NCBI GenBank assembly: GCA_030523725.1
Contig: JAUNHV010000003.1
Location: 62,001-126,000, forward strand
Length of the DNA stretch: 64,000 nt
From: Synergistaceae bacterium
GTDB taxonomy: Bacteria > Synergistota > Synergistia > Synergistales > Synergistaceae
Reading direction: 5' to 3'
The position numbers and the translations under genes are program-made. The notes beneath the pieces are model-generated. The model had not been told where the DNA came from and did not search any database. It saw only the letters and a list, made by a program, of their open reading frames with translations. Positions 1,393 through 61,466 of this stretch are shown here, in pieces (positions within the stretch are counted from its first letter, which is position 1; every line of letters starts with the position of its first letter).

Positions 1393-2244
1393 ATGAAGAT
1401 AGATGTTGTTTGTCCTTTGTATAAAGCCGAATCGCTTATTGACCAACTTATTGAGGGAATTAAAGGTCAAATTAGCGTAGAACTTTGTCACGTAATTTTT
1501 CCAATCACGCAATCTCAAAACGACGAAGAAGTGATTAGGAAAATCACTGAGGCAGGATTTGAGTATTTTCTGTTAAAAAAAGAAGACTTTTCCCACAGTC
1601 TTACCCGCCAAAAAGCAATGTTTAAGTTTTGCACAAGTGATATTGTTATCTTAATCACACACGATGTAAAATTCATTAAGCAAGATGCTTTTACCAAACT
1701 TGCAGCAGCTATAAAAGATGACATTGTTTTTGCTTACGGACGACAAATTTGCCCCAACAAATCCATTGAGTATTACATTAGGTGCAAGAACTATGGTGAT
1801 GAATCTGCAGTTGTTTCAATGGATGACATCTCTAGCCGCCAGCCCAACGCATTTTTTGCCTCAGATGCTTTTGCCGCTTATAACAGACATGTTTTCGTCA
1901 AACTTGGAGGTTATGGTACAGAAAGTATGCAATTTAACGAAGATACTTTCTATGCAAAAAAAGTTTTAGAGCATGGTTACAAGAAAGCTTATGTTGCGGA
2001 TGCAATAGTGGAACATTGGCATAATTTCACATTAAAGCAGCTTTATAACAGATATTACGAAACAGGAAAATGGATCTCTACACATCCTCATTTTTTAACT
2101 AATAGTGTCACAACTTCAGGTATATCACTTGCATATTACGTGTTTTTGCAAGCATTGAAGGATTTGAATTTCCCTGTTCTATTGACGTTTTTCCCAAACA
2201 TGTTAGCAAGGTATTTGGGCGTGGAAGCAGGAAAAAGAATGTAG
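1393..2244 (+). CDS. Glycosyltransferase family 2 (rhamnosyltransferase-like)
   Basis: A 283-aa GT-A type transferase. The N-terminus MKIDVVCPLYKAESLI is the typical nucleotide-sugar-binding start of GT2 enzymes. A later block, LGGYGTESMQFNEDTFYAKK, resembles the acceptor/ED region of rhamnosyltransferases of O-antigen and rhamnan pathways. It sits 14 bp after rmlC, so use of dTDP-rhamnose is a reasonable inference, but donor and acceptor cannot be read from sequence. It has no signal peptide and is probably cytoplasmic, acting on a lipid-linked intermediate. Confidence 0.8.
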   Translation: MKIDVVCPLYKAESLIDQLIEGIKGQISVELCHVIFPITQSQNDEEVIRKITEAGFEYFLLKKEDFSHSLTRQKAMFKFCTSDIVILITHDVKFIKQDAFTKLAAAIKDDIVFAYGRQICPNKSIEYYIRCKNYGDESAVVSMDDISSRQPNAFFASDAFAAYNRHVFVKLGGYGTESMQFNEDTFYAKKVLEHGYKKAYVADAIVEHWHNFTLKQLYNRYYETGKWISTHPHFLTNSVTTSGISLAYYVFLQALKDLNFPVLLTFFPNMLARYLGVEAGKRM

Positions 2245-2292
2245 TAACATACCCCCCTGCAAATTAACTTGTTAAAAACGAGGAATTTACCA

Positions 2293-3237
2293 ATGCAAGA
2301 CATAAAAGCGAAAATTTCTCTTGTTATGGCAACTTATAATGGAGAAAAGTACATTGTAGAGCAATTAGATTCAATAAAAAACCAAACTCGTTCTGCGGAT
2401 GAGGTAATAATTGCAGATGACTGTTCAACTGATGCAACAGTGGAGATAATTGAAAAATATATTACAGAAAATGATTTATCTTCCTCTTGGCGTTTAGTGG
2501 TTAATCCAGTTAACAAAGGCTGGCAAAAAAACTTTATGGATCTCATTAACATGGCAACAGGAGATATCATTTTTCTATCTGACCAAGATGATATTTGTCT
2601 TCCGAATAAGTTTGAACGGATGACAGATGTTCTTCTACAAACGCCAAATGCAACCTTGCTTGCCTGTTCTCCAGATACCCATTTTGTGAAGAAGCTGCAA
2701 TGGCTTGAGCGTTTGGGGAGTATTGAAGATAGACCTTACGGAAAACATGTACTTGAACAAGTGAAATTTGATAGAATTTGGCCACAATGTTATCGTCCTG
2801 GGTGTTGCTTTTGCTTCAAAAAGGAGATCATTCCAATAGTAACACAGCTTTGGTTTGAAACTTGTCCACACGATTTTCTTATTTGGGGAACAGCTTTAGC
2901 CAAAGGTCAAGTATATATATTGAATGAGCGGTTACATTATTTTCGCAAACATTATGCAAACAACTCTCCAAGTAACGCAAAAAAAATGCAAAAGCGTACC
3001 ATAATCCTAAATTGGTATATTTCTATTGCTAATACGGTTCTTCAGCATAAAAACGAATTAATACTTACCTCGGATATTGTAAAGAAGATTGAAATTCAAC
3101 GTAACTTTTATGCAATGCGAGTTAGTGCAATGACTAACAAAAATATTTTTTTACTCCTTTTTCTTTTAGCAAAGTTACATCTTTATCCGAAATACCTTGT
3201 TTCTTGGGTTGCAGATGTAATTAGCGCATTTAGATAA
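2293..3237 (+). CDS. Glycosyltransferase family 2
   Basis: A 314-aa GT2 enzyme. KISLVMATYNGEKYIVEQLD near residue 7, ADDCSTDAT, and SDQDDICLPNKF (the DxD-type metal/donor site) are all present. This arrangement resembles RgpB-like alpha-1,3-rhamnosyltransferases of cell-wall rhamnan synthesis. The frame is open from a TTG at 2269, but the ATG at 2293 is preferred because GAGG lies at a sensible distance upstream. It is probably co-transcribed with the preceding GT2 and the rml genes. Sugar specificity is inferred from context only. Confidence 0.78.
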   Translation: MQDIKAKISLVMATYNGEKYIVEQLDSIKNQTRSADEVIIADDCSTDATVEIIEKYITENDLSSSWRLVVNPVNKGWQKNFMDLINMATGDIIFLSDQDDICLPNKFERMTDVLLQTPNATLLACSPDTHFVKKLQWLERLGSIEDRPYGKHVLEQVKFDRIWPQCYRPGCCFCFKKEIIPIVTQLWFETCPHDFLIWGTALAKGQVYILNERLHYFRKHYANNSPSNAKKMQKRTIILNWYISIANTVLQHKNELILTSDIVKKIEIQRNFYAMRVSAMTNKNIFLLLFLLAKLHLYPKYLVSWVADVISAFR

Positions 3238-3257
3238 TGTGGAAAGGTTAGTTTACA

Positions 3258-3920
3258 ATGCAATTATTAAAAATAATTCTTCAAGAAATGAGAAATATTT
3301 TGAAAACTAAAATTCTCCGTTTTAAGTGGCGAAAACGGAACAAGCATAATATGACAGAAGTTAAGAACACAGCCAAAGAAAAATTTATTCCTGAAAATGT
3401 ATCTGTTGGCCACCACACATATGGAGAGCTTTTTGTTTTAACAAGTAATTATGGTGCAAAGCTTAAGATTGGAAACTTTTGCTCCATTGCACCTAATGTT
3501 ACCTTTGTTCCAATTGCAGATCATCCAACTAACCATATCTCCACGTATCCATTTAAGGTAAAGATAATGGGAAAAGAGTGTGAGGCTATTTCAAAGGGTG
3601 ACATTGTTGTTAATGATGATGTTTGGATTGGTGCAGGAGCTACAATTTTATCTGGTGTCACCATCGGGCAAGGAGCTATTGTCTCTGCGGGTTCTGTTGT
3701 AACAAAAGACATTCCGCCCTATGCAATCGTTGCTGGTGTTCCTGCTCATGTTATAAAATATCGTTTCGACGAGCAAACTATACAAAGGTTGCTTCAAATA
3801 GATTTCTCTGCACTCGATGAAAATTTGATTCGTGAACATATGGACGACCTTTATGCCCCTGTAACAAACAAAACAGATTTATCATGGTTGCCACAGAAAG
3901 CAACAATGTGGAAAAATTAG
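3258..3920 (+). CDS. Hexapeptide-repeat acetyltransferase (CatB/XAT type)
   Basis: A 220-aa left-handed beta-helix acyltransferase. [14 protein letters not shown] begins the helix and [10 protein letters not shown] carries the His expected to be the catalytic base of xenobiotic/CatB-type acetyltransferases. Hexapeptide repeats run through [20 protein letters not shown] to [13 protein letters not shown]. It probably O- or N-acetylates a sugar of the glycan made by this cluster, since antibiotic-resistance members of the family look similar but normally are not found in rml loci. The N-terminal 45 residues are basic and poorly conserved. Confidence 0.78.
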
Positions 3921-31517: not shown

Positions 31518-31832
31518 ATGCCAATAAACGAAATTGAAGAATTAAAAAATAGCTTTATTGAGAGTTTGGCACCGATAAAAATATATTTGTTTGGCTCCTT
31601 TGCAGAGGGCAAACAAACTGAAAATAGTGATTTTGACTTTTATATTGTTGTGAATGACGGTGAAAAAGATATGATTTCGCTTACAGCCAGAGCATATAAG
31701 GCTATTCGTCATAAACAGAAAAGATCTGTTGATATCATTGTTAATACAACAAAAACATTTGAGGATAAAAAAAATAAAGTAATGACGGTAGAGAAAGAAG
31801 TTTTACAGAAAGGAGTTCTTCTGTATGGATAA
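31518..31832 (+). CDS. MNT-type nucleotidyltransferase (putative antitoxin)
   Basis: A 104-aa minimal nucleotidyltransferase. IYLFGSFAEGKQTENSDFDFYI gives Gly26-Ser27 and the metal-binding Asp38/Asp40; a third acidic residue is in KRSVDIIV near 78. In known MNT-HEPN pairs this subunit modifies the HEPN partner. ATG 31518 with AAAGGAG 9 bp upstream is chosen over an in-frame TTG at 31497. It overlaps the HEPN gene by 8 bp and lies inside the his operon between hisA and hisI. Confidence 0.8.
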   Translation: MPINEIEELKNSFIESLAPIKIYLFGSFAEGKQTENSDFDFYIVVNDGEKDMISLTARAYKAIRHKQKRSVDIIVNTTKTFEDKKNKVMTVEKEVLQKGVLLYG

Positions 31833-32223
31833 TGATGCAGAAATCTGGTTGGAATTTGCAAAGACAGATTTGGGTGTTGCAAAGCATTTGAACAGTCAAT
31901 ACTATCCAAAACCGTTTGAGATTGTATGTTATCATTGTCAGCAAGCTGCTGAAAAAGCGATAAAGTCAATTATGATTGCGTGTAATGCACAAAGTGACAT
32001 TCCTCGCAAGCATAATTTATCATTTTTACTTGATCAAATAGAAAGTAAGATTGATATACCTGAAAAATACTATGATTACTGCGATATGCTTACACCTTAT
32101 GGTATAGCTGTAAGGTATCCCAATGGGATATTATTTCTTGAAGAAAGTCATGTGCAGGATGCCATTCACTATGCAGAAGAAATTGTTGAATGGGCAGAAA
32201 AAATAATTCTTGAAAAGATTTAG
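31825..32223 (+). CDS. HEPN-domain protein, partner of MNT
   Basis: A 132-aa helical HEPN protein. EIVCYHCQQAAEKAIKSIMI is the signature QQAxEKxxK helix, and the C-terminus has TPYGIAVRYPNG with EEIVEWAEKIILEKI. The RNase motif Rx4-6H of toxic HEPN proteins is not evident: the only candidate, Arg in VRYPNG, has no His at the right distance. It may be a substrate-binding or regulatory HEPN rather than an RNase. It overlaps the MNT gene by 8 bp and is 33 bp before hisI. Confidence 0.78.
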   Translation: MDNDAEIWLEFAKTDLGVAKHLNSQYYPKPFEIVCYHCQQAAEKAIKSIMIACNAQSDIPRKHNLSFLLDQIESKIDIPEKYYDYCDMLTPYGIAVRYPNGILFLEESHVQDAIHYAEEIVEWAEKIILEKI

Positions 32224-32256: not shown

Positions 32257-32583
32257 ATGGATTTATCAAAAATAAAATTTGATGATCATGGGCTTGTGCC
32301 TGTGGTTGTGCAGAGTGTTATAGATGGAGAAGTTCTCATGGTTGCCTGGGCTAACGAAGAAGCCTTAAAAAAAACCGAACAGCTTGGCGAGTGTGTGTTT
32401 TGGTCTCGTAGCAGAAAAGAAATTTGGCATAAAGGTGCAACCAGTGGAAACACGATGAAGGTGAGAGAGTTTCGTTCCGATTGCGATGGAGATACAATTT
32501 TGGCGCTTGTTGAGCCAAGTGGGCCAGCTTGTCATACAGGAGCAAAAAGTTGCTTTTTTAACGAGCTGTTCACCTGTAAATAA
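32257..32583 (+). CDS. hisI: Phosphoribosyl-AMP cyclohydrolase
   Basis: Opens the adenine ring of phosphoribosyl-AMP in histidine synthesis. The 108-aa protein is the cyclohydrolase alone, without the HisE pyrophosphohydrolase domain. It has VLMVAWANEEAL, VFWSRSRKEIWHKGATSGN, metal-binding DCDGD near residue 77 and GPACHTGAKSCFF with the zinc Cys. A separate hisE is not visible in the window. ATG 32257 follows GGAGCAAGAATA. hisF follows 46 bp later. Confidence 0.95.
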   Translation: MDLSKIKFDDHGLVPVVVQSVIDGEVLMVAWANEEALKKTEQLGECVFWSRSRKEIWHKGATSGNTMKVREFRSDCDGDTILALVEPSGPACHTGAKSCFFNELFTCK

Positions 32584-39993: not shown

Positions 39994-40881
39994 ATGAAAA
40001 AAACAATTTTTAGGGGAGCTGCAACAGCAATCGTTACGCCACTCACAAAAGATGGAGTGGATTTTGAAACATTTGGCAGATTAATTGACTGGCAAATAGG
40101 CGAGGGCATTGCAGCTCTTGTTGTTGCTGGAACAACGGGCGAGGGTTCAACCTTAACGGACGATGAGCACAGAATGGTGTTGCGTTTTGCTGTTGAACGT
40201 GCTGCTCACAGAGTCCCAATAATTGCTGGTACTGGTTCAAATGATACAGAATATGCAATAAGCCTTTCAAAATACAGCTGTGATATCGGTGCTGATGCTT
40301 GTCTTCTTGTGACGCCATATTACAACAAGGCAACACAAAAGGGACTTGTAAAGATGTATACTGCAATTGCAGACGCTGTGACAAAACCAATCATCCTTTA
40401 CAACGTGCCTTCACGTACAGGCGTTGGCCTAGAACCAACAACATACCTTGAGCTTGCTGAACACCCAAATATTGTAGCAATCAAGGAAGCAAACGGAAAT
40501 ATTGCAAAAATCACAGAAACTGCTGCACTTGTGGGAGACAAACTGGATATATACTCTGGTAATGATGATCAGGTTGTGCCTATTTTATCACTTGGTGGCA
40601 AGGGGGTTATTTCTGTTCTTAGCAATGTTGCTCCTCGTGAAACACAGATGATGTGTGATCTTTTCTTTGAAGGGAAAATTAAAGAGTCGGCTGCGCTACA
40701 GTTTAAATATATGCCACTCATTAAGGCACTCTTTTCAGAAGTAAATCCAATTCCAGTAAAGTCTGCAATGGCTGCAATGGGCTTTGGAGAAAACTCCTTG
40801 CGTCTACCACTGACACAAATGGAAAAAGCGAACGAAGAAAAATTGTTTGCCGAAATGAAGCGTCTTGGTCTCATTAAGTAA
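39994..40881 (+). CDS. dapA: 4-hydroxy-tetrahydrodipicolinate synthase
   Basis: Condenses pyruvate with aspartate semialdehyde, entry to lysine and diaminopimelate. The 295-aa barrel has GAATAIVTPLTKDGVDF, VVAGTTGEGSTLTDDEH, YNVPSRTGVGL (catalytic Tyr) and NIVAIKEANGN with the Schiff-base Lys. ATG 39994 has an AAGGAGA site. It begins a dapA-dapB-[MNT-HepT]-dapH run that ends in diaminopimelate precursor for peptidoglycan. Confidence 0.95.
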   Translation: MKKTIFRGAATAIVTPLTKDGVDFETFGRLIDWQIGEGIAALVVAGTTGEGSTLTDDEHRMVLRFAVERAAHRVPIIAGTGSNDTEYAISLSKYSCDIGADACLLVTPYYNKATQKGLVKMYTAIADAVTKPIILYNVPSRTGVGLEPTTYLELAEHPNIVAIKEANGNIAKITETAALVGDKLDIYSGNDDQVVPILSLGGKGVISVLSNVAPRETQMMCDLFFEGKIKESAALQFKYMPLIKALFSEVNPIPVKSAMAAMGFGENSLRLPLTQMEKANEEKLFAEMKRLGLIK

Positions 40882-40896
40882 TTTGGTTGAATTAGT

Positions 40897-41634
40897 ATGA
40901 AAATAATAATAACAGGTGCAACTGGTAGAATGGGGCAAAAAATGCAGGAGGCATCACGTGAAACTGGAACAGAGGTAGCGGCTCTTATTTCTCCTGATTT
41001 TACTAAAACAGAGGGGTTAAACTACCAGTATATAAATGAATTTACTGGGACTGCTGATTGTGTTGTAGATTTTTCTAATCATCTTGGCACAGTTGAATTG
41101 CTAGACTGGTGTGTGAAAAAAAATGTCCCTGTCGTTATTGCAACAACAGGACATTCGGAAGAAGAAAAAAAAGCTATTGAGCAGGCAAGCAGTAAAATTG
41201 CAGTTTTTTATTCTGGTAATATGTCGCTAGGAATTGCTACCCTTTGTAATGTTGCGAGGAGAGTCGCTTCCGCTTTCCCAAATGCGGACATAGAAATAAT
41301 AGAAGTGCATCACAATAAGAAACTAGATGCTCCTTCTGGCACAGCTTTGATGCTAGGTAATGCCTTAAAAGATGTTCGCCCCAACGCAGAATTTGTTGTT
41401 GGCAGAAGTGGAAATTGCCCACGCCAGAAGAATGAGATTGGTATTCAGTCAATTCGAATGGGCAATATCGTTGGAATTCATGAGATAATGATTTCAACAG
41501 GGAGCGAAACAATAACGCTAAAACACGAAGCACACGACAGAAAGCTTTTTGCTGATGGTGCGATCGAAGCCGCAAAATTTTTGATTGATAAACCAGCAGG
41601 ACTATATTCAATAAGCCAACTTGTAAAAAATTAA
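40897..41634 (+). CDS. dapB: 4-hydroxy-tetrahydrodipicolinate reductase
   Basis: NAD(P)H-dependent second step of the diaminopimelate route. The 245-aa protein begins IIITGATGRMGQKM, then DFSNHLGTVELL, IATTGHSEEEKK, GNMSLGI and the catalytic EVHHNKKLDAPSGTALMLG. It lies 15 bp after dapA with a weak ribosome site (GGTTGAATTAG). The next genes are a nucleotidyltransferase/HepT pair. Confidence 0.95.
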   Translation: MKIIITGATGRMGQKMQEASRETGTEVAALISPDFTKTEGLNYQYINEFTGTADCVVDFSNHLGTVELLDWCVKKNVPVVIATTGHSEEEKKAIEQASSKIAVFYSGNMSLGIATLCNVARRVASAFPNADIEIIEVHHNKKLDAPSGTALMLGNALKDVRPNAEFVVGRSGNCPRQKNEIGIQSIRMGNIVGIHEIMISTGSETITLKHEAHDRKLFADGAIEAAKFLIDKPAGLYSISQLVKN

Positions 41635-41659
41635 ATCTAATTTCTTGGTGGTGATTGAA

Positions 41660-41986
41660 ATGGTATATACACTTCAGGAGATAAAAAATAAAATTTCTCC
41701 AATCATATTGAAGTACAACATCCCTTCCGTTTATATTTTCGGCTCGTACGCTCGTGGAACAGCAAACGAAGCAAGTGACATTGATTTTTTAATTGATACT
41801 ACGGGGACGGAATTAAAAAGCATGTTCAAATTGGGAAAATTGTTTGACGAACTGTGTGGAGTTCTTGGTAAGAAGATTGACCTTATTACCGTAAGTTCTT
41901 TACAACAAAAACCACTGATGCAAAGTGATGTCTTGTTTCACGATAACATTATGTCTGAAAGGGTGAACCTAGACGATGTTGCCTGA
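41660..41986 (+). CDS. MntA-type nucleotidyltransferase antitoxin
   Basis: A 108-aa minimal nucleotidyltransferase. IFGSYARGTANEASDIDFLID supplies Gly28-Ser29 and metal-binding Asp40/Asp42, and KKIDLITVSSL gives the third carboxylate. MntA proteins AMPylate a Tyr of the HepT toxin. ATG 41660 is chosen over TTG 41645 because GGTGGTGA lies at ribosome-site distance. It overlaps the HepT gene by 11 bp, the usual MntA-HepT arrangement. It lies within the dap operon. Confidence 0.85.
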   Translation: MVYTLQEIKNKISPIILKYNIPSVYIFGSYARGTANEASDIDFLIDTTGTELKSMFKLGKLFDELCGVLGKKIDLITVSSLQQKPLMQSDVLFHDNIMSERVNLDDVA

Positions 41987-42317
41987 TTTACAGCGTATTT
42001 TTCGCATAAAAGAGTATTGTGAGGAGATACAGAAAACAATAGCTCGTTATGGAAACAATTTTGAAGCATTTGATGATGATTTGGATTTCCAGCGCTCTGT
42101 AGCATTTTCAATTCTGCAAATTGGTGAGCTTGCAACAGGATTGTCTGAATCGTTTAAGGAAGCAACAAATGACAAAATTCCTTGGGGTGCAATAAAAGGA
42201 ATGAAGAACTGGATGGTTCACAATTATGGTAACATGAGTCGTGATGTCATTTGGCAAACAATTCAAGAAGATATACCTTTACTACTAGAATTTTGTAAAG
42301 AAACTTTAGAAGGATAA
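41976..42317 (+). CDS. HepT-like (DUF86) HEPN toxin with altered active site
   Basis: A 113-aa helical DUF86/HepT protein. [17 protein letters not shown] and [20 protein letters not shown] are family hallmarks. The RNase/AMPylation motif RX4HXY reads KNWMVHNY: His82 and Tyr84 are kept, but the Arg is Lys77. This could weaken RNase activity while keeping the AMPylation-site Tyr. It overlaps the MNT gene by 11 bp and precedes dapH by 25 bp. Confidence 0.85.
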
Positions 42318-42342
42318 ACATAAAATAATTGGAGAAAATTAT

Positions 42343-43035
42343 ATGAATGCAGAAGAAATAATCCGCTATATTTCGGAGTCAAAAAAAAAGACCCCTGTAA
42401 AAATATATGTCAAGGAAAAATCACCAATTAACTGGGGTAGCGCAACAGTTTTCGGCTGTTCTGACAAGATTGTTTTTGGTGACTGGGAAGAATTGCAAGA
42501 TATTATAGAAAAAAATAGCTCAAAAATAGGTGCGATAATCGTCGAAAATGATCGCAGAAATTCTGGAGTTCCACTTCTTGACATGAAAAACATCAAGGCT
42601 CGTATTGAACCAGGTGCAATCATTCGTGAAAAGGTGGAGATTGGTGAAGGTGCTGTCATCATGATGGGTGCTGTCATCAATATTGGTGCCATTGTTGGAA
42701 AGGGCACCATGATAGACATGGGAGCTGTGCTTGGTGGCAGAGCGACTGTCGGAGCGAATTGCCACATTGGTGCAGGAGCTGTGCTAGCCGGTGTGGTTGA
42801 ACCAGCGAGCGCCACGCCTGTTATCGTGGAAGATGGCGTGCTTGTAGGCGCAAATGCTGTTGTGATAGAGGGTGTGCATGTTGGCAAAAATGCAGTCGTA
42901 GCAGCGGGCGCAGTTGTTGTGGACGATGTGCCAGAAAACGCTGTCGTTGCAGGTTGCCCAGCAAAAATTATCAAATATAAGGACGAAAAAACAGCGGATA
43001 AAACGGCACTTGTTGATGCATTGAGAAAACTATGA
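42343..43035 (+). CDS. dapH: Tetrahydrodipicolinate N-acetyltransferase
   Basis: Acetylates tetrahydrodipicolinate in the acetylase branch of lysine/DAP synthesis. The 230-aa protein has the DapH N-terminal domain ([20 protein letters not shown]) and a left-handed beta helix with many hexapeptides ([19 protein letters not shown] through [19 protein letters not shown]), ending [17 protein letters not shown]. It follows the MntA-HepT insertion, so it was probably contiguous with dapB originally. ATG 42343 follows GGAGAAAATTAT. Confidence 0.94.
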
Positions 43036-58018: not shown

Positions 58019-58303
58019 ATGGGTGCAACAATTTCAATAAGACCGTCTAAAGATCTTAGAAGCAATTACTCTCAAATATCCTTATTGACGAGACAGAATC
58101 CTGTTGCAATTACAGTAAACGGCAAGGAAGATACTGTCGTATTATGTCACGAAGATTTTGTAAACAGAGAAAATTATATTTCTGAAATAGAAGCCAAGCT
58201 TAAAGTGTATGAGCATCTTGCACAAGCTGCAGATGATATCAAACTTGGTAGAATTCAGAATGCTGACGAAGTTTTTGACGATATCTTAAAAGTGTTGGAC
58301 TAG
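58019..58303 (+). CDS. Phd/YefM-type antitoxin
   Basis: A 94-aa antitoxin. The N-terminal DNA-binding part has ISIRPSKDLRSNYSQI and NPVAITVNGKEDTVVLCHEDF, the Phd/YefM signature. The acidic C-terminal helix (KLKVYEHLAQAADDIKLGRI onward) is the toxin-neutralising part. GTG-free ATG 58019 follows GGGAAGGGG. It is 8 bp from the toxin start, so the pair is co-transcribed and probably autoregulated from the promoter at 57953. Confidence 0.9.
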   Translation: MGATISIRPSKDLRSNYSQISLLTRQNPVAITVNGKEDTVVLCHEDFVNRENYISEIEAKLKVYEHLAQAADDIKLGRIQNADEVFDDILKVLD

Positions 58304-58311
58304 GTGTGCAT

Positions 58312-58635
58312 ATGCATTACAAAATTGTCGTGACCGACACGGCAAAGCACGATTTAAGAAAAATTGTGCTATATATTGCAGAGGAATCTAAAAACAAAGA
58401 TATAGCTAGAAACTTTGTAAATGAGCTCCGTGCAAAAACCAAGGTGCTAGAAGCATATCCTAATTCTGGTGCAATTCCAGACGACAGAGTCCTCAAATCT
58501 TTGGGATATCGTTTCTTGGTTCATAAATATTATATGTTGTTTTATCTTGTGAACGAAACGCTAAAGGTAATCTACATAATAGCAATATTTAACAGCAAAC
58601 GGGATTATGTAAGAGCAATGATGAAATTTATCTAG
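58312..58635 (+). CDS. RelE/ParE-family toxin
   Basis: A 107-aa toxin of the RelE/ParE superfamily. YKIVVTDTAKHDLRKIVLYI, NSGAIPDDRVLKSLGYRFLV and YYMLFYLVNETLKVIYIIAIF are the ParE-like blocks. The ParE form poisons gyrase and the RelE form cleaves mRNA; sequence alone does not separate them, although the C-terminus resembles ParE. ATG 58312 with AGGTG is preferred over GTG 58306. A perfect 16-bp terminator follows at 58676. Confidence 0.88.
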   Translation: MHYKIVVTDTAKHDLRKIVLYIAEESKNKDIARNFVNELRAKTKVLEAYPNSGAIPDDRVLKSLGYRFLVHKYYMLFYLVNETLKVIYIIAIFNSKRDYVRAMMKFI

Positions 58636-58996: not shown

Positions 58997-60247
58997 ATGG
59001 AATGCGAACTTAATAAGGAATTATTTTCGAGGGAAAAGTATCTGTCCAAAATCAGAGGATTTTATCACGAATGTGAAATTATTAAAGTCATCACCGGTGT
59101 CAGACGGTGTGGAAAATCTTCTTTAATGAATTTGATCATCCAGGAACTGCTGAAAGATGGTATTTCCCAGAATAATATTTTGTATTTTAATCTGGATAAA
59201 AGACCTTATCGAAGCCTTTCCAAACCTGATGAGTTGGATGCACTGATTGAAAAGCATGCTACAGCTCAAGGTAAAAAGTTTCTCTTTATTGATGAGATTC
59301 AGAATATATCTGAATTTGAAACGGTTATCAATTCTTGGAGAGAGGAAGGAGATGTTTCAATTTTCATCACAGGTTCCAATTCCTACCTTCTTTCTGGAGA
59401 ACTTGCTACAAAATTGACTGGACGATATCTTGAATTCAATGTTCTACCTTTAACCTTCGATGAGTACCTTGCTATGAAGTCATTTTTGCATAAAGAGGTT
59501 TCTGCTGATTTCATGACAGAACTGGTAAACTATATTCATGAAGGTGGATTTCCTTATGCCTTACGATTGGATTCACTGAGCGATAAGAGAGCTTATGTCC
59601 GGGGATTGATTGATGAAATATATCAAAAGGACATCAGAAAAAAAGTTATTATCAAGAATAAGTCCGTCTTTGATACTGTCATGAACTATATTATCAATAA
59701 CTTTGGGGCAACCACAAGTATTACAAACATTGTGGACGATCTAGCAAAGAACAAAGTCTCCATTAAGAGAGAGACTGTCAATAAGTATATTGACGCACTG
59801 AAAAGTGCAAAAGTCCTAATGGAATGCAAGCGATTTGATATGAAGTCCAGAAAATCACTTTCCGGTGAAAAGAAATACTATTTGAGTGACCTATCATTCT
59901 ATTATGCCTTGAATACAGACAATCGGATTAATTTTGGTCCCACACTTGAAAATATCGTCTATTCATATGCTGCCAGTAAAGGCTATGAAATAAGCGTTGG
60001 AAAAATCGGCAAGTTGGAATGCGATTTTATTTTGCGAGACCGTGAATTGTCTTATGCCTATGTTCAGGTCGCATACACCATACTAGAAAGCAGAAAGACA
60101 GAAGACAGAGAGTATGCCAGTCTTGAAAGTATCACGCGTGACAATTATCCACGATACGTGATGACAACCGATAAACTACTTCAAAAGCGTAACGGAATCC
60201 AACACGTTAATATTATGGATTTTATCTCGGGCGATAAAAATTTCTGA
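58997..60247 (+). CDS. AAA-type ATPase with DUF4143 C-terminus
   Basis: A 416-aa P-loop ATPase. Walker A is VITGVRRCGKSSLMNL (residues 34-41 core) and Walker B KFLFIDEIQN near residue 95. FITGSNSYLLSGELATKLTGR is the typical sensor block of AAA_14 proteins, and the C-terminal DUF4143 half ends YVQVAYTILESRKTEDREY, a nuclease-like region. The function of this family is unknown and it is common in gut anaerobes. ATG 58997 follows GGAGG. It converges on a paralogue at 61466. Confidence 0.82.
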   Translation: MECELNKELFSREKYLSKIRGFYHECEIIKVITGVRRCGKSSLMNLIIQELLKDGISQNNILYFNLDKRPYRSLSKPDELDALIEKHATAQGKKFLFIDEIQNISEFETVINSWREEGDVSIFITGSNSYLLSGELATKLTGRYLEFNVLPLTFDEYLAMKSFLHKEVSADFMTELVNYIHEGGFPYALRLDSLSDKRAYVRGLIDEIYQKDIRKKVIIKNKSVFDTVMNYIINNFGATTSITNIVDDLAKNKVSIKRETVNKYIDALKSAKVLMECKRFDMKSRKSLSGEKKYYLSDLSFYYALNTDNRINFGPTLENIVYSYAASKGYEISVGKIGKLECDFILRDRELSYAYVQVAYTILESRKTEDREYASLESITRDNYPRYVMTTDKLLQKRNGIQHVNIMDFISGDKNF

Positions 60248-60275: not shown

Positions 60276-61466
60276 TCATCCTTCAAGGCTGTGCATTTTT
60301 AGGAAATTGGTTAGCGAAATATGCTGGACTGTGCTGGTTGAAAAATCAAAGTCATCATTTGTGATGATAATCTTTTTCTTGGATTGATCGAGAACGTTAA
60401 ACAGAGCAAATTCTCGTTGATACGTTTTTTCTTCGACAATTGAGTAGGCAACCTGGATCAAGTATTCTTTTCCATCTTTGGAAGCCATGAAGTCAATTTC
60501 CTGACCGTTCTGAGTGAAGACGGAAAGCTCATATCCCATGAAGAACAATTCATTATAGACGATATTCTCAAGGTTGTGTGTCAAATCAAAACGTTTGTTA
60601 CGTTGACGAATACTGTTAAAGGATACATCTTCGTCATAGAGCTTGGCATAGAAAGTAAGTTCGCGCTTTGCTCTCGTGGAATATTGAGGTAGGTGGCGAA
60701 TGATGTATGCTTCCTCCAAGTAGGCGAGATACTTCAAAATTGTATTTACAGAGCATTCCAGTTTTTCTGAAGAAAGGTAATGTTGCACTGAATTAGCACT
60801 AAAGATTCTAGCGTTAGAAATCAAAATGTAATTCACTAAACGCTTGAAAAGTTCGGCTTTGCGAATATGGTAACGGTTCATAATGTCGTTGATAATGATG
60901 GTCTGATTCAGATCATTCAGATAATCAGTTATAGCTTCTTTATCAGAAAACTCAATGACTTTCGGGAAACCGCCATACACAAGATAATCACCTATTGAAT
61001 AGGTTTTGCCAAGTTGCTCGGCATATTCAGCAATTTCCTTGTAAACAAACGGACGAATGCAGAACGAAACATAACGACCGCTGAGTTCTTTGGTAAATTC
61101 TTTTGACAGCAGCTTGGAATTACTGCCTGTGATAAACAGAGATAAGTTTTCCAAACGTAGTGATCGGCACGCGATGTTCCAGTCTTTTACAAGTTGAATT
61201 TCATCGAGGAAAACATACAACTTCTGATTTTCTGGCATCCTTTGATGGATGTAATTTACCAGTGTCTGCGTATCGGGTATTGCATCAGCATATTCAATCA
61301 TTTCAAAATTGATGGTTAGGGTCTGCTTTCCCAGTAATTTTAGCTCATTGGCAATTTGTGAGAGAATGATGGACTTTCCGCATCGGCGAATCCCTGTGAT
61401 GACCTTAATAAGGTCGCTATCATAGAATGGTCTGATTTGGCGAATATATTGTTCTCGAATAATCAT
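60276..61466 (-). CDS. AAA-type ATPase with DUF4143 C-terminus, paralogue
   Basis: A 396-aa protein. Walker A is VITGIRRCGKSIILSQ (24-32 core), then VFLDEIQLVKDW, FITGSNSKLLSKEFTKELSGR and RYVSFCIRPFVYKEIAEYA. The DUF4143 half has NIVYNELFFMGYELSV and EIDFMASKDGKEYLIQVAYS, a restriction-endonuclease-like DxExK-type region. It shares fold and motif order with the gene at 58997 but is not a recent duplicate. ATG 61466 follows GGGGGG. The operator-like array lies just upstream. Confidence 0.82.
   Translation of the reverse strand: MIIREQYIRQIRPFYDSDLIKVITGIRRCGKSIILSQIANELKLLGKQTLTINFEMIEYADAIPDTQTLVNYIHQRMPENQKLYVFLDEIQLVKDWNIACRSLRLENLSLFITGSNSKLLSKEFTKELSGRYVSFCIRPFVYKEIAEYAEQLGKTYSIGDYLVYGGFPKVIEFSDKEAITDYLNDLNQTIIINDIMNRYHIRKAELFKRLVNYILISNARIFSANSVQHYLSSEKLECSVNTILKYLAYLEEAYIIRHLPQYSTRAKRELTFYAKLYDEDVSFNSIRQRNKRFDLTHNLENIVYNELFFMGYELSVFTQNGQEIDFMASKDGKEYLIQVAYSIVEEKTYQREFALFNVLDQSKKKIIITNDDFDFSTSTVQHISLTNFLKMHSLEG

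Follow-up and report, generated by a model that had tools for sequence, protein, structure and literature searches.

The window, by which we mean the whole stretch of 64,000 nucleotides analyzed here (Synergistaceae bacterium, contig JAUNHV010000003.1), carries a dap operon on its forward strand, with two small genes situated between dapB and dapH.

39994 to 40881, forward strand: dapA (PF00701, 8.3e-89; TIGR00674, 339.9 bits, cutoff 206)
40897 to 41634, forward strand: dapB, the 5' neighbor of the MNT-HepT module (TIGR00036, 196.6 bits, cutoff 122)
41660 to 41986, forward strand: MNT (minimal nucleotidyltransferase), presumed antitoxin (PF18765, 3.6e-13; PF01909, 7.2e-12)
41976 to 42317, forward strand: HepT-like HEPN protein, presumed toxin (PF01934, 1.7e-17, 63.7 bits, cutoff 23.5)
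42204 to 42227, forward strand: KX4HXY stretch, HepT codons 77 to 84, read from the sequence (Lys codon, 42204 to 42206)
42343 to 43035, forward strand: dapH, the 3' neighbor of the module (TIGR03532, 339.5 bits, cutoff 231.75)

All three dap products score above the NCBIfam cutoffs, that of dapH being of the tetrahydrodipicolinate N-acetyltransferase type (TIGR03532). The MNT ORF (108 aa, with an alternative upstream TTG start at 41645) and the HepT ORF (113 aa) overlap by 11 bp, lie on the same strand as dapA, dapB, and dapH, and are set off by spacers of 25 bp from dapB and 25 bp from dapH. Their Pfam labels are Polbeta/NTP_transf_2 (MNT) and HepT-like (HEPN). The PF01934 score, the adjacent upstream MNT with a GSX10DXD motif, and the helical-bundle fold of the HEPN protein identify the pair as an MNT-HEPN two-gene module with a PF01934 HEPN; the original prediction had named it an MNT-HepT pair, and the matches to PF01934, PF18765, and PF01909 together with the gene order confirm this. 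The NCBIfam HepT/MntA equivalogs (NF047751 and NF047752) give 32.9 and 45.9 bits, under their cutoffs of 60, a shortfall that divergent members may show too. Among the PADLOC models, those of the candidate defense system PDC-S09 match the MNT (best, 8.5e-19), and HepT has no match to PADLOC models at an E value of 0.1. The G+C content is 0.367 for the MNT gene and 0.351 for the HepT gene, against 0.394 to 0.447 for dapA, dapB, and dapH and 0.375 for the window; a foreign composition of the module was considered and rejected, the third codon positions not being distinctive.

The AlphaFold2 model of HepT is a confident helical bundle (pLDDT, 93.3). Foldseek searches with this model ranked the Shewanella HepT first (E = 6.3e-3; probability, 1.00) and recovered no match at an E value of 1e-3 or better. 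In VIA-align, the best 12 rows comprise 11 HEPN toxin chains of MNT pairs and YutE (Z = 8.7 to 12.4), and unrelated helical bundles begin at Z values of 8.5 and below. The best structural matches, the Shewanella and Aphanizomenon HEPN toxins, have Z values of 11.7 to 12.4, to be read with the caveat that helical bundles can reach Z values of up to 12.4 by chance; the sequence profile agrees with them (3e-7 for the HepT alignment profile against the Shewanella HepT). This alignment profile was needed, direct phmmer searches of the PDB with HepT having recovered chance-level matches only.

The HepT motif and its lysine

The motif residues of the window HepT are K77-N-W-M-V-H82-N-Y84, i.e., KX4HXY with Lys77, His82, and Tyr84 exactly as in the original prediction. 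Two peptide patterns were used to collect homologs from about 85,000 species, each represented by one genome; one pattern required Arg or Lys at column 77, and the other left that column free. The best 80 of the 290 relatives found this way serve as our homolog set, which is fit for a comparison of Arg with Lys, other residues being undersampled at column 77. Within this best 80 of 290, where the nearest homolog (a Monoglobus MAG) has 48% identity, column 77 is Arg in 80/80, and so are the His and Tyr positions invariant. The other columns invariant in 80/80 are Glu51, Ile68, Trp70, Ile73, His82, and Tyr84, all six intact in the window HepT; among columns conserved in at least 75% of the same set, it deviates only at 71 (Gly versus Arg in 70/80), 77, and 88 (Ser versus Asp in 64/80). 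The MNT partner likewise has its motif residues G28 and S29, X10, D40, X, and D42, plus D74. Near the best 80 of the 290 HepTs we recovered 72 MNT homologs; the set of five residues is complete in 66, 5 are unaligned at some positions, and 1 has Glu at one position.

Within the order, PF01934 is found at 101 places in 59 of the 180 genomes, and 91 of these places were fetched, with ten of the weakest omitted. The profile recovered 82 of the 91 HepT loci; with the window's own excluded, 75 were aligned, and the motif itself could be aligned in 69. These 69 have RHY in 66 cases, SHY in 1 (L005), QHY in 1 (L022), and RHC in 1 (L014), and none has Lys at the position of the motif Arg. L005 (Ser) and L022 (Gln) are two further HepT-like genes without the motif Arg, the match in L022 including a stop codon. 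The order set overlaps with the best-80 set (L031 and L060, named Fretibacterium, are the same protein). Both of the viral HepT loci found in IMG/VR have Arg.

As judged from these alignments, the exchange of Arg for Lys77 is rare and isolated and is not part of a general decay, because the homologs have Arg while the other invariant residues are kept in the window HepT. Pairs of this type are well known, and Lys for the motif Arg is unusual; a literature search with the single phrase 'arginine to lysine' for such an exchange in a HEPN ribonuclease found no paper. The further claim that the AMPylation Tyr remains and the RNase Arg does not holds for both residues, Tyr84 being present and the Arg gone. 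What the loss entails is ambiguous, as the published mutants conflict. In the Shewanella HepT, R97G and H102A are each reported to abolish toxicity (PMC4621449), whereas R98A and H103A of the Legionella HEPN are reported to have negligible effect on RNase activity, with toxicity kept, and a Mg site (Q44/E47) is proposed there as the catalytic alternative (PMC11586414). Q48 and the invariant E51, putative counterparts of Legionella Q44/E47, are both retained in the window HepT. PMC3710099 puts conservation of the motif at 83% within the HEPN-M (PF08780/DUF86) family and says that HEPN proteins without it are able to remain toxic. The title of PDB entry 7ae6, di-AMPylated HEPN(R102A), suggests by analogy that a HEPN without the Arg can still receive AMP.

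The junction of dapB and dapH

A DapH of the TIGR03532 type is found in 93 of the 180 genomes of the order. We counted 94 dapH places outside the window genome and examined 93 of them (33 plus 60), none of which has an MNT or a HepT at an E value of 1e-3; dapB lay within the fetched stretch at 89 of these loci, and the other four say little. A comparison by eye of the places listed for PF01934 and PF05168 with those of dapH gave no coincidence except the window's own. The gap between dapB and dapH is 708 bp in the window, and at the 89 loci it is at most 60 bp in 73, 61 to 300 bp in 13, and wider in 3. Two of the wide gaps (L205 and L229) hold, by eye, an aspartate kinase-like ORF on the operon strand. 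The third (L222, genome G028, positions 907 to 1520) encodes a HicA toxin (PF07927, 6.4e-16) and a HicB-like antitoxin (PF15919, 2.8e-9) and is thus a second, unrelated toxin-antitoxin (TA) pair at this junction.

A repeat search of positions 41500 to 42420 found no direct repeats flanking the module, only short imperfect pairs. Two candidates were tried and rejected, namely a promoter or terminator of the module's own (the match count is no higher than in shuffles) and a tRNA-linked integration (tRNA is absent from the window).

The window dap genes have identities of 62 to 73% (dapA), 44 to 53% (dapB), and, where the full gene aligned, mostly 65 to 74% (dapH) to those of two genera, g37 and g38, of another family (f6), against 42 to 44%, 29 to 31%, and 52 to 56%, respectively, to the three recovered from its own family. 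The operon as a whole may therefore have been exchanged between families, its genes being closer to those of f6 than to those of its own family, where only 4 of the 52 genomes, the window genome included, have this DapH type.

Modules in amino-acid operons across the order

The window has a companion module in its his operon:

31518 to 31832, forward strand: MNT of the his-operon pair (PF01909, 3.3e-12)
31825 to 32223, forward strand: HEPN of the his-operon pair, between hisA and hisI (PF05168, 4.4e-23)

The HEPNs of the dap and his modules belong to different Pfam families (PF01934 versus PF05168), and the alignment of their MNTs spans only 45 aa (38% identity), in keeping with the claim that two unrelated modules sit in amino-acid operons within 10 kb. 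They lie within 10.4 kb of each other, for which the chance is about 1.3% for two random points, an after-the-fact figure. The 1.55-Mb assembly, searched for the HEPN families PF01934 and PF05168, has one match to each, along with three to PF01909, two of which are the dap and his MNTs. A tblastn search (E value of 1e-4) with the his pair gave no match in 29 other hisI loci, which were fetched from among the 137 other genomes that matched hisI. HisI itself (32257 to 32583) is separate and of 108 aa in the window, and the matching frames in most relatives are of about 210 to 250 aa, as expected of HisIE fusions. Elsewhere in the window, a further TA pair (58019 to 58635; ParE toxin, PF05016, with an antitoxin named by eye) is followed on its 3' side by two ATPase-like ORFs, recognized by eye (58997 to 60247 and 60276 to 61466).

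We surveyed the neighbors of such modules with a reference of 63 amino-acid enzymes, scoring a same-strand gene if it ends no more than 650 bp upstream of the toxin match. Such a gene lies just upstream of HepT at 3 of 91 loci (dapB in the window and argH in L263 and L268), 84 of the 91 having at least 400 bp upstream, and upstream of the PF05168 HEPN at 19 of 50 loci tested out of 52 places listed (hisA in the window and hisB in 18). All 18 hisB loci (L305-L307, L312, L314, L316-L320, L322, L324, L383, L385, L387-L389, and L394; e.g., L306:543-2382) are in genus g37. They are probably a single insertion, and the arrangement is possibly an old one that was retained; in L385 the order is hisB-HEPN-MNT, the reverse of the MNT-HEPN order of the others. 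A nitroreductase and an rsmG-like gene follow 3' of the pair in L306, L314, and L385, the nitroreductase being fused to the HEPN ORF in L306. In two genomes, argH is followed at 0 to 3 bp by an MNT-HepT pair (L263:395-2400 and L268:348-2340); one genome, G056, has both an argH module and a hisB module and is the second with two such modules. A threonine synthase-like gene overlaps an MNT-HepT pair by 4 bp in L026 and L027 (about 2000 to 3337, minus strand); it scores under the NCBIfam threonine synthase cutoffs, was named by eye, and was missed by the neighbor test. A biosynthetic neighbor outside amino-acid metabolism is seen in L009, where an MNT-HepT pair lies directly 5' of hemB with a 4-bp overlap.

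Controls with the 30 best-scoring loci each gave 1/30 for PIN (a trpB-like match of 28.6%) and 0/30 for ParE (28 usable). The background, i.e., an amino-acid gene upstream in close codirectional pairs, was taken from 400-kb samples of three genomes and amounts to 3/221, 6/200, and 4/170, or 13/591 (2.2%). Upstream neighbors within 100 bp form 30 classes from 50 loci, one class being that of the MNT itself and a few others doubtful ORFs. With the window's two excluded, 2 of 27 classes are of amino-acid genes (argH and hisB; P about 0.12); with the threonine synthase-like case added there are 3 (P about 0.02); and with the window's two included, which had prompted the test, there are 4 of 29 (P about 0.004). 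A lysine biosynthesis operon with an inserted MNT-HEPN module, similar by description to ours, is reported for Thermus thermophilus HB8; it is absent from HB27 and was read by Makarova and coworkers as a sign of mobility (PMC2701414), the only paper that our search for TA insertions in a biosynthesis operon together with HEPN brought up. Placement in amino-acid operons is thus known in kind and recurrent, and at present it is only weakly beyond chance.

Interpretation and comparison with known systems

Our preferred reading, with a probability of roughly 0.6, is that a mobile MNT-HEPN module was inserted in the lysine operon, where, its toxin probably weakened, it is a passenger and not a regulator. 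A module of the PF01934 kind would have entered between dapB and dapH in the lineage of the window and is probably transcribed together with the dap genes. Its MNT would adenylylate HepT at Tyr84, and Lys77 would lower or abolish the HEPN RNase activity, given that the close homologs invariably have Arg there and that the Shewanella HepT requires it. Weakened or close to harmless, the pair would then persist as a passenger in an operon needed by the cell, with no part in regulating lysine synthesis. Four points argue against a weakened toxin: the Legionella R98A/H103A proteins reportedly stayed toxic (PMC11586414), a HEPN lacking the motif can be toxic according to PMC3710099, Lys is a mild exchange for Arg, and Q48 and E51, the putative Mg-site counterparts, are kept.

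The same observations bear on whether the pair is instead a fully working TA system, in which Lys77 supports catalysis or another site does so, as proposed for the Legionella HEPN. Its ORFs are intact and overlapping, neither the other invariant HepT residues nor those of the MNT have been lost, and Legionella R98A is described as still active (PMC11586414); with Arg in 80/80 of the close homologs (best 80 of 290) and Shewanella R97G reported as nontoxic (PMC4621449), we consider this reading unlikely.

Selection or a site preference for amino-acid operons, the former raised by the original prediction, is compatible with the passenger reading; the toxin supply would then follow amino-acid starvation. 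Pairs recur after hisB (18 g37 genomes), argH (2), and a threonine synthase-like gene (2), G056 resembles the window genome in having two such modules, the T. thermophilus HB8 module (PMC2701414) lies in a lysine operon, and the PIN and ParE controls (30 best-scoring loci each) are low; the HicA-HicB pair at the dapB-dapH junction makes a preference slightly more likely. Set against this are the 3/91 HepT loci, the window's included, and a comparison (2/27 versus 13/591) whose P value of about 0.12 falls to about 0.02 only with the threonine synthase-like case, the 18 hisB loci being probably one insertion and some of the 27 classes doubtful ORFs. Such placements recur at his, arg, and possibly thr sites, the enrichment outside the window is weak, and we regard selection for such sites as rather improbable.

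A domesticated regulator, i.e., an RNase-dead, RNA-binding HEPN with MNT AMPylation tuning the dap operon, is very doubtful. Its location within the operon and the retained MNT residues would suit such a role, and there is a precedent in MtlR, described in PMC3710099 as the mannitol operon repressor; many members of its HEPN family lack the motif, and a regulatory role is suggested there for such proteins. An MtlR-like association with the operon is not kept across species, the module being absent from all 93 other dapH loci (89 with dapB in view), and the window has no Rfam match at gathering scores; the suggestion that such modules are kept as regulators is not borne out. Still bolder, and to our mind highly improbable, is the notion that MNT-HEPN modules were repeatedly recruited to amino-acid operons and that the dap copy is a noncutting, RNA-binding brake switched by AMPylation. 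If the recruitment were real, operon output and amino-acid supply would set the TA balance (his twice, dap, arg, and possibly thr), and if the brake were, the dap copy, its catalytic Arg lost, would restrain either the lysine operon or translation. Equally improbable is an assembly or sequencing error at Lys77, for which a single-base error in the codon would suffice in this draft of 15 contigs, as no frameshift or other defect is seen in the module.

The recurrence in amino-acid operons, above all that of hisB in 18 g37 genomes, would matter if a larger survey showed it to go beyond chance. The published models disagree on the motif Arg, essential in Shewanella and dispensable in Legionella, and a natural HepT that has Lys77 but retains its other invariant residues offers a direct test for separating the two catalytic models.

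Class I HepT/MntA pairs of type VII TA systems are defined by RX4HXY and GSX10DXD, with AMPylation at the Tyr reported as demonstrated (PMC7641770). The dap-operon pair is not a strict member of this class because the defining RX4HXY is absent, its HepT having KX4HXY. It probably works like class I HepT/MntA in weakened form, and a reduced HepT activity through Lys77 is likely by analogy. With the Shewanella oneidensis pair (SO_3166/SO_3165; PDB codes 5yep and 6m6u; type VII TA, class I), it shares an MNT 5' of the HEPN, a PF01934-type HEPN, GSX10DXD, the His and acceptor Tyr, and the fold (6m6u against the HepT model: Z = 12.4, 2.8 Å, 107 residues). It differs in having Lys for Arg, in a structural alignment with 18% identity, in its shorter HepT (113 aa), in its place within a dap operon, and in scoring under the NCBIfam HepT/MntA cutoffs. 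The HEPN-MNT structures 7ae2, 7ae6, 7ae8, and 7ae9, which we take, with PMC11586414, to be from Aphanizomenon flos-aquae, share the HEPN fold with the window HepT; the 7ae6 protein has a natural Arg102, as read from the name of its mutant, whereas the window HepT has a natural Lys. The Legionella pneumophila HEPN-MNT pair (8xeh, 8xdj, and 8yuf, tied to PMC11586414 by title) has the same HEPN fold (Z = 8.7 to 9.3) and an MNT partner; its HEPN keeps RX4HXY yet reportedly uses a Mg site (PMC11586414), whereas the window HepT has KX4HXY.
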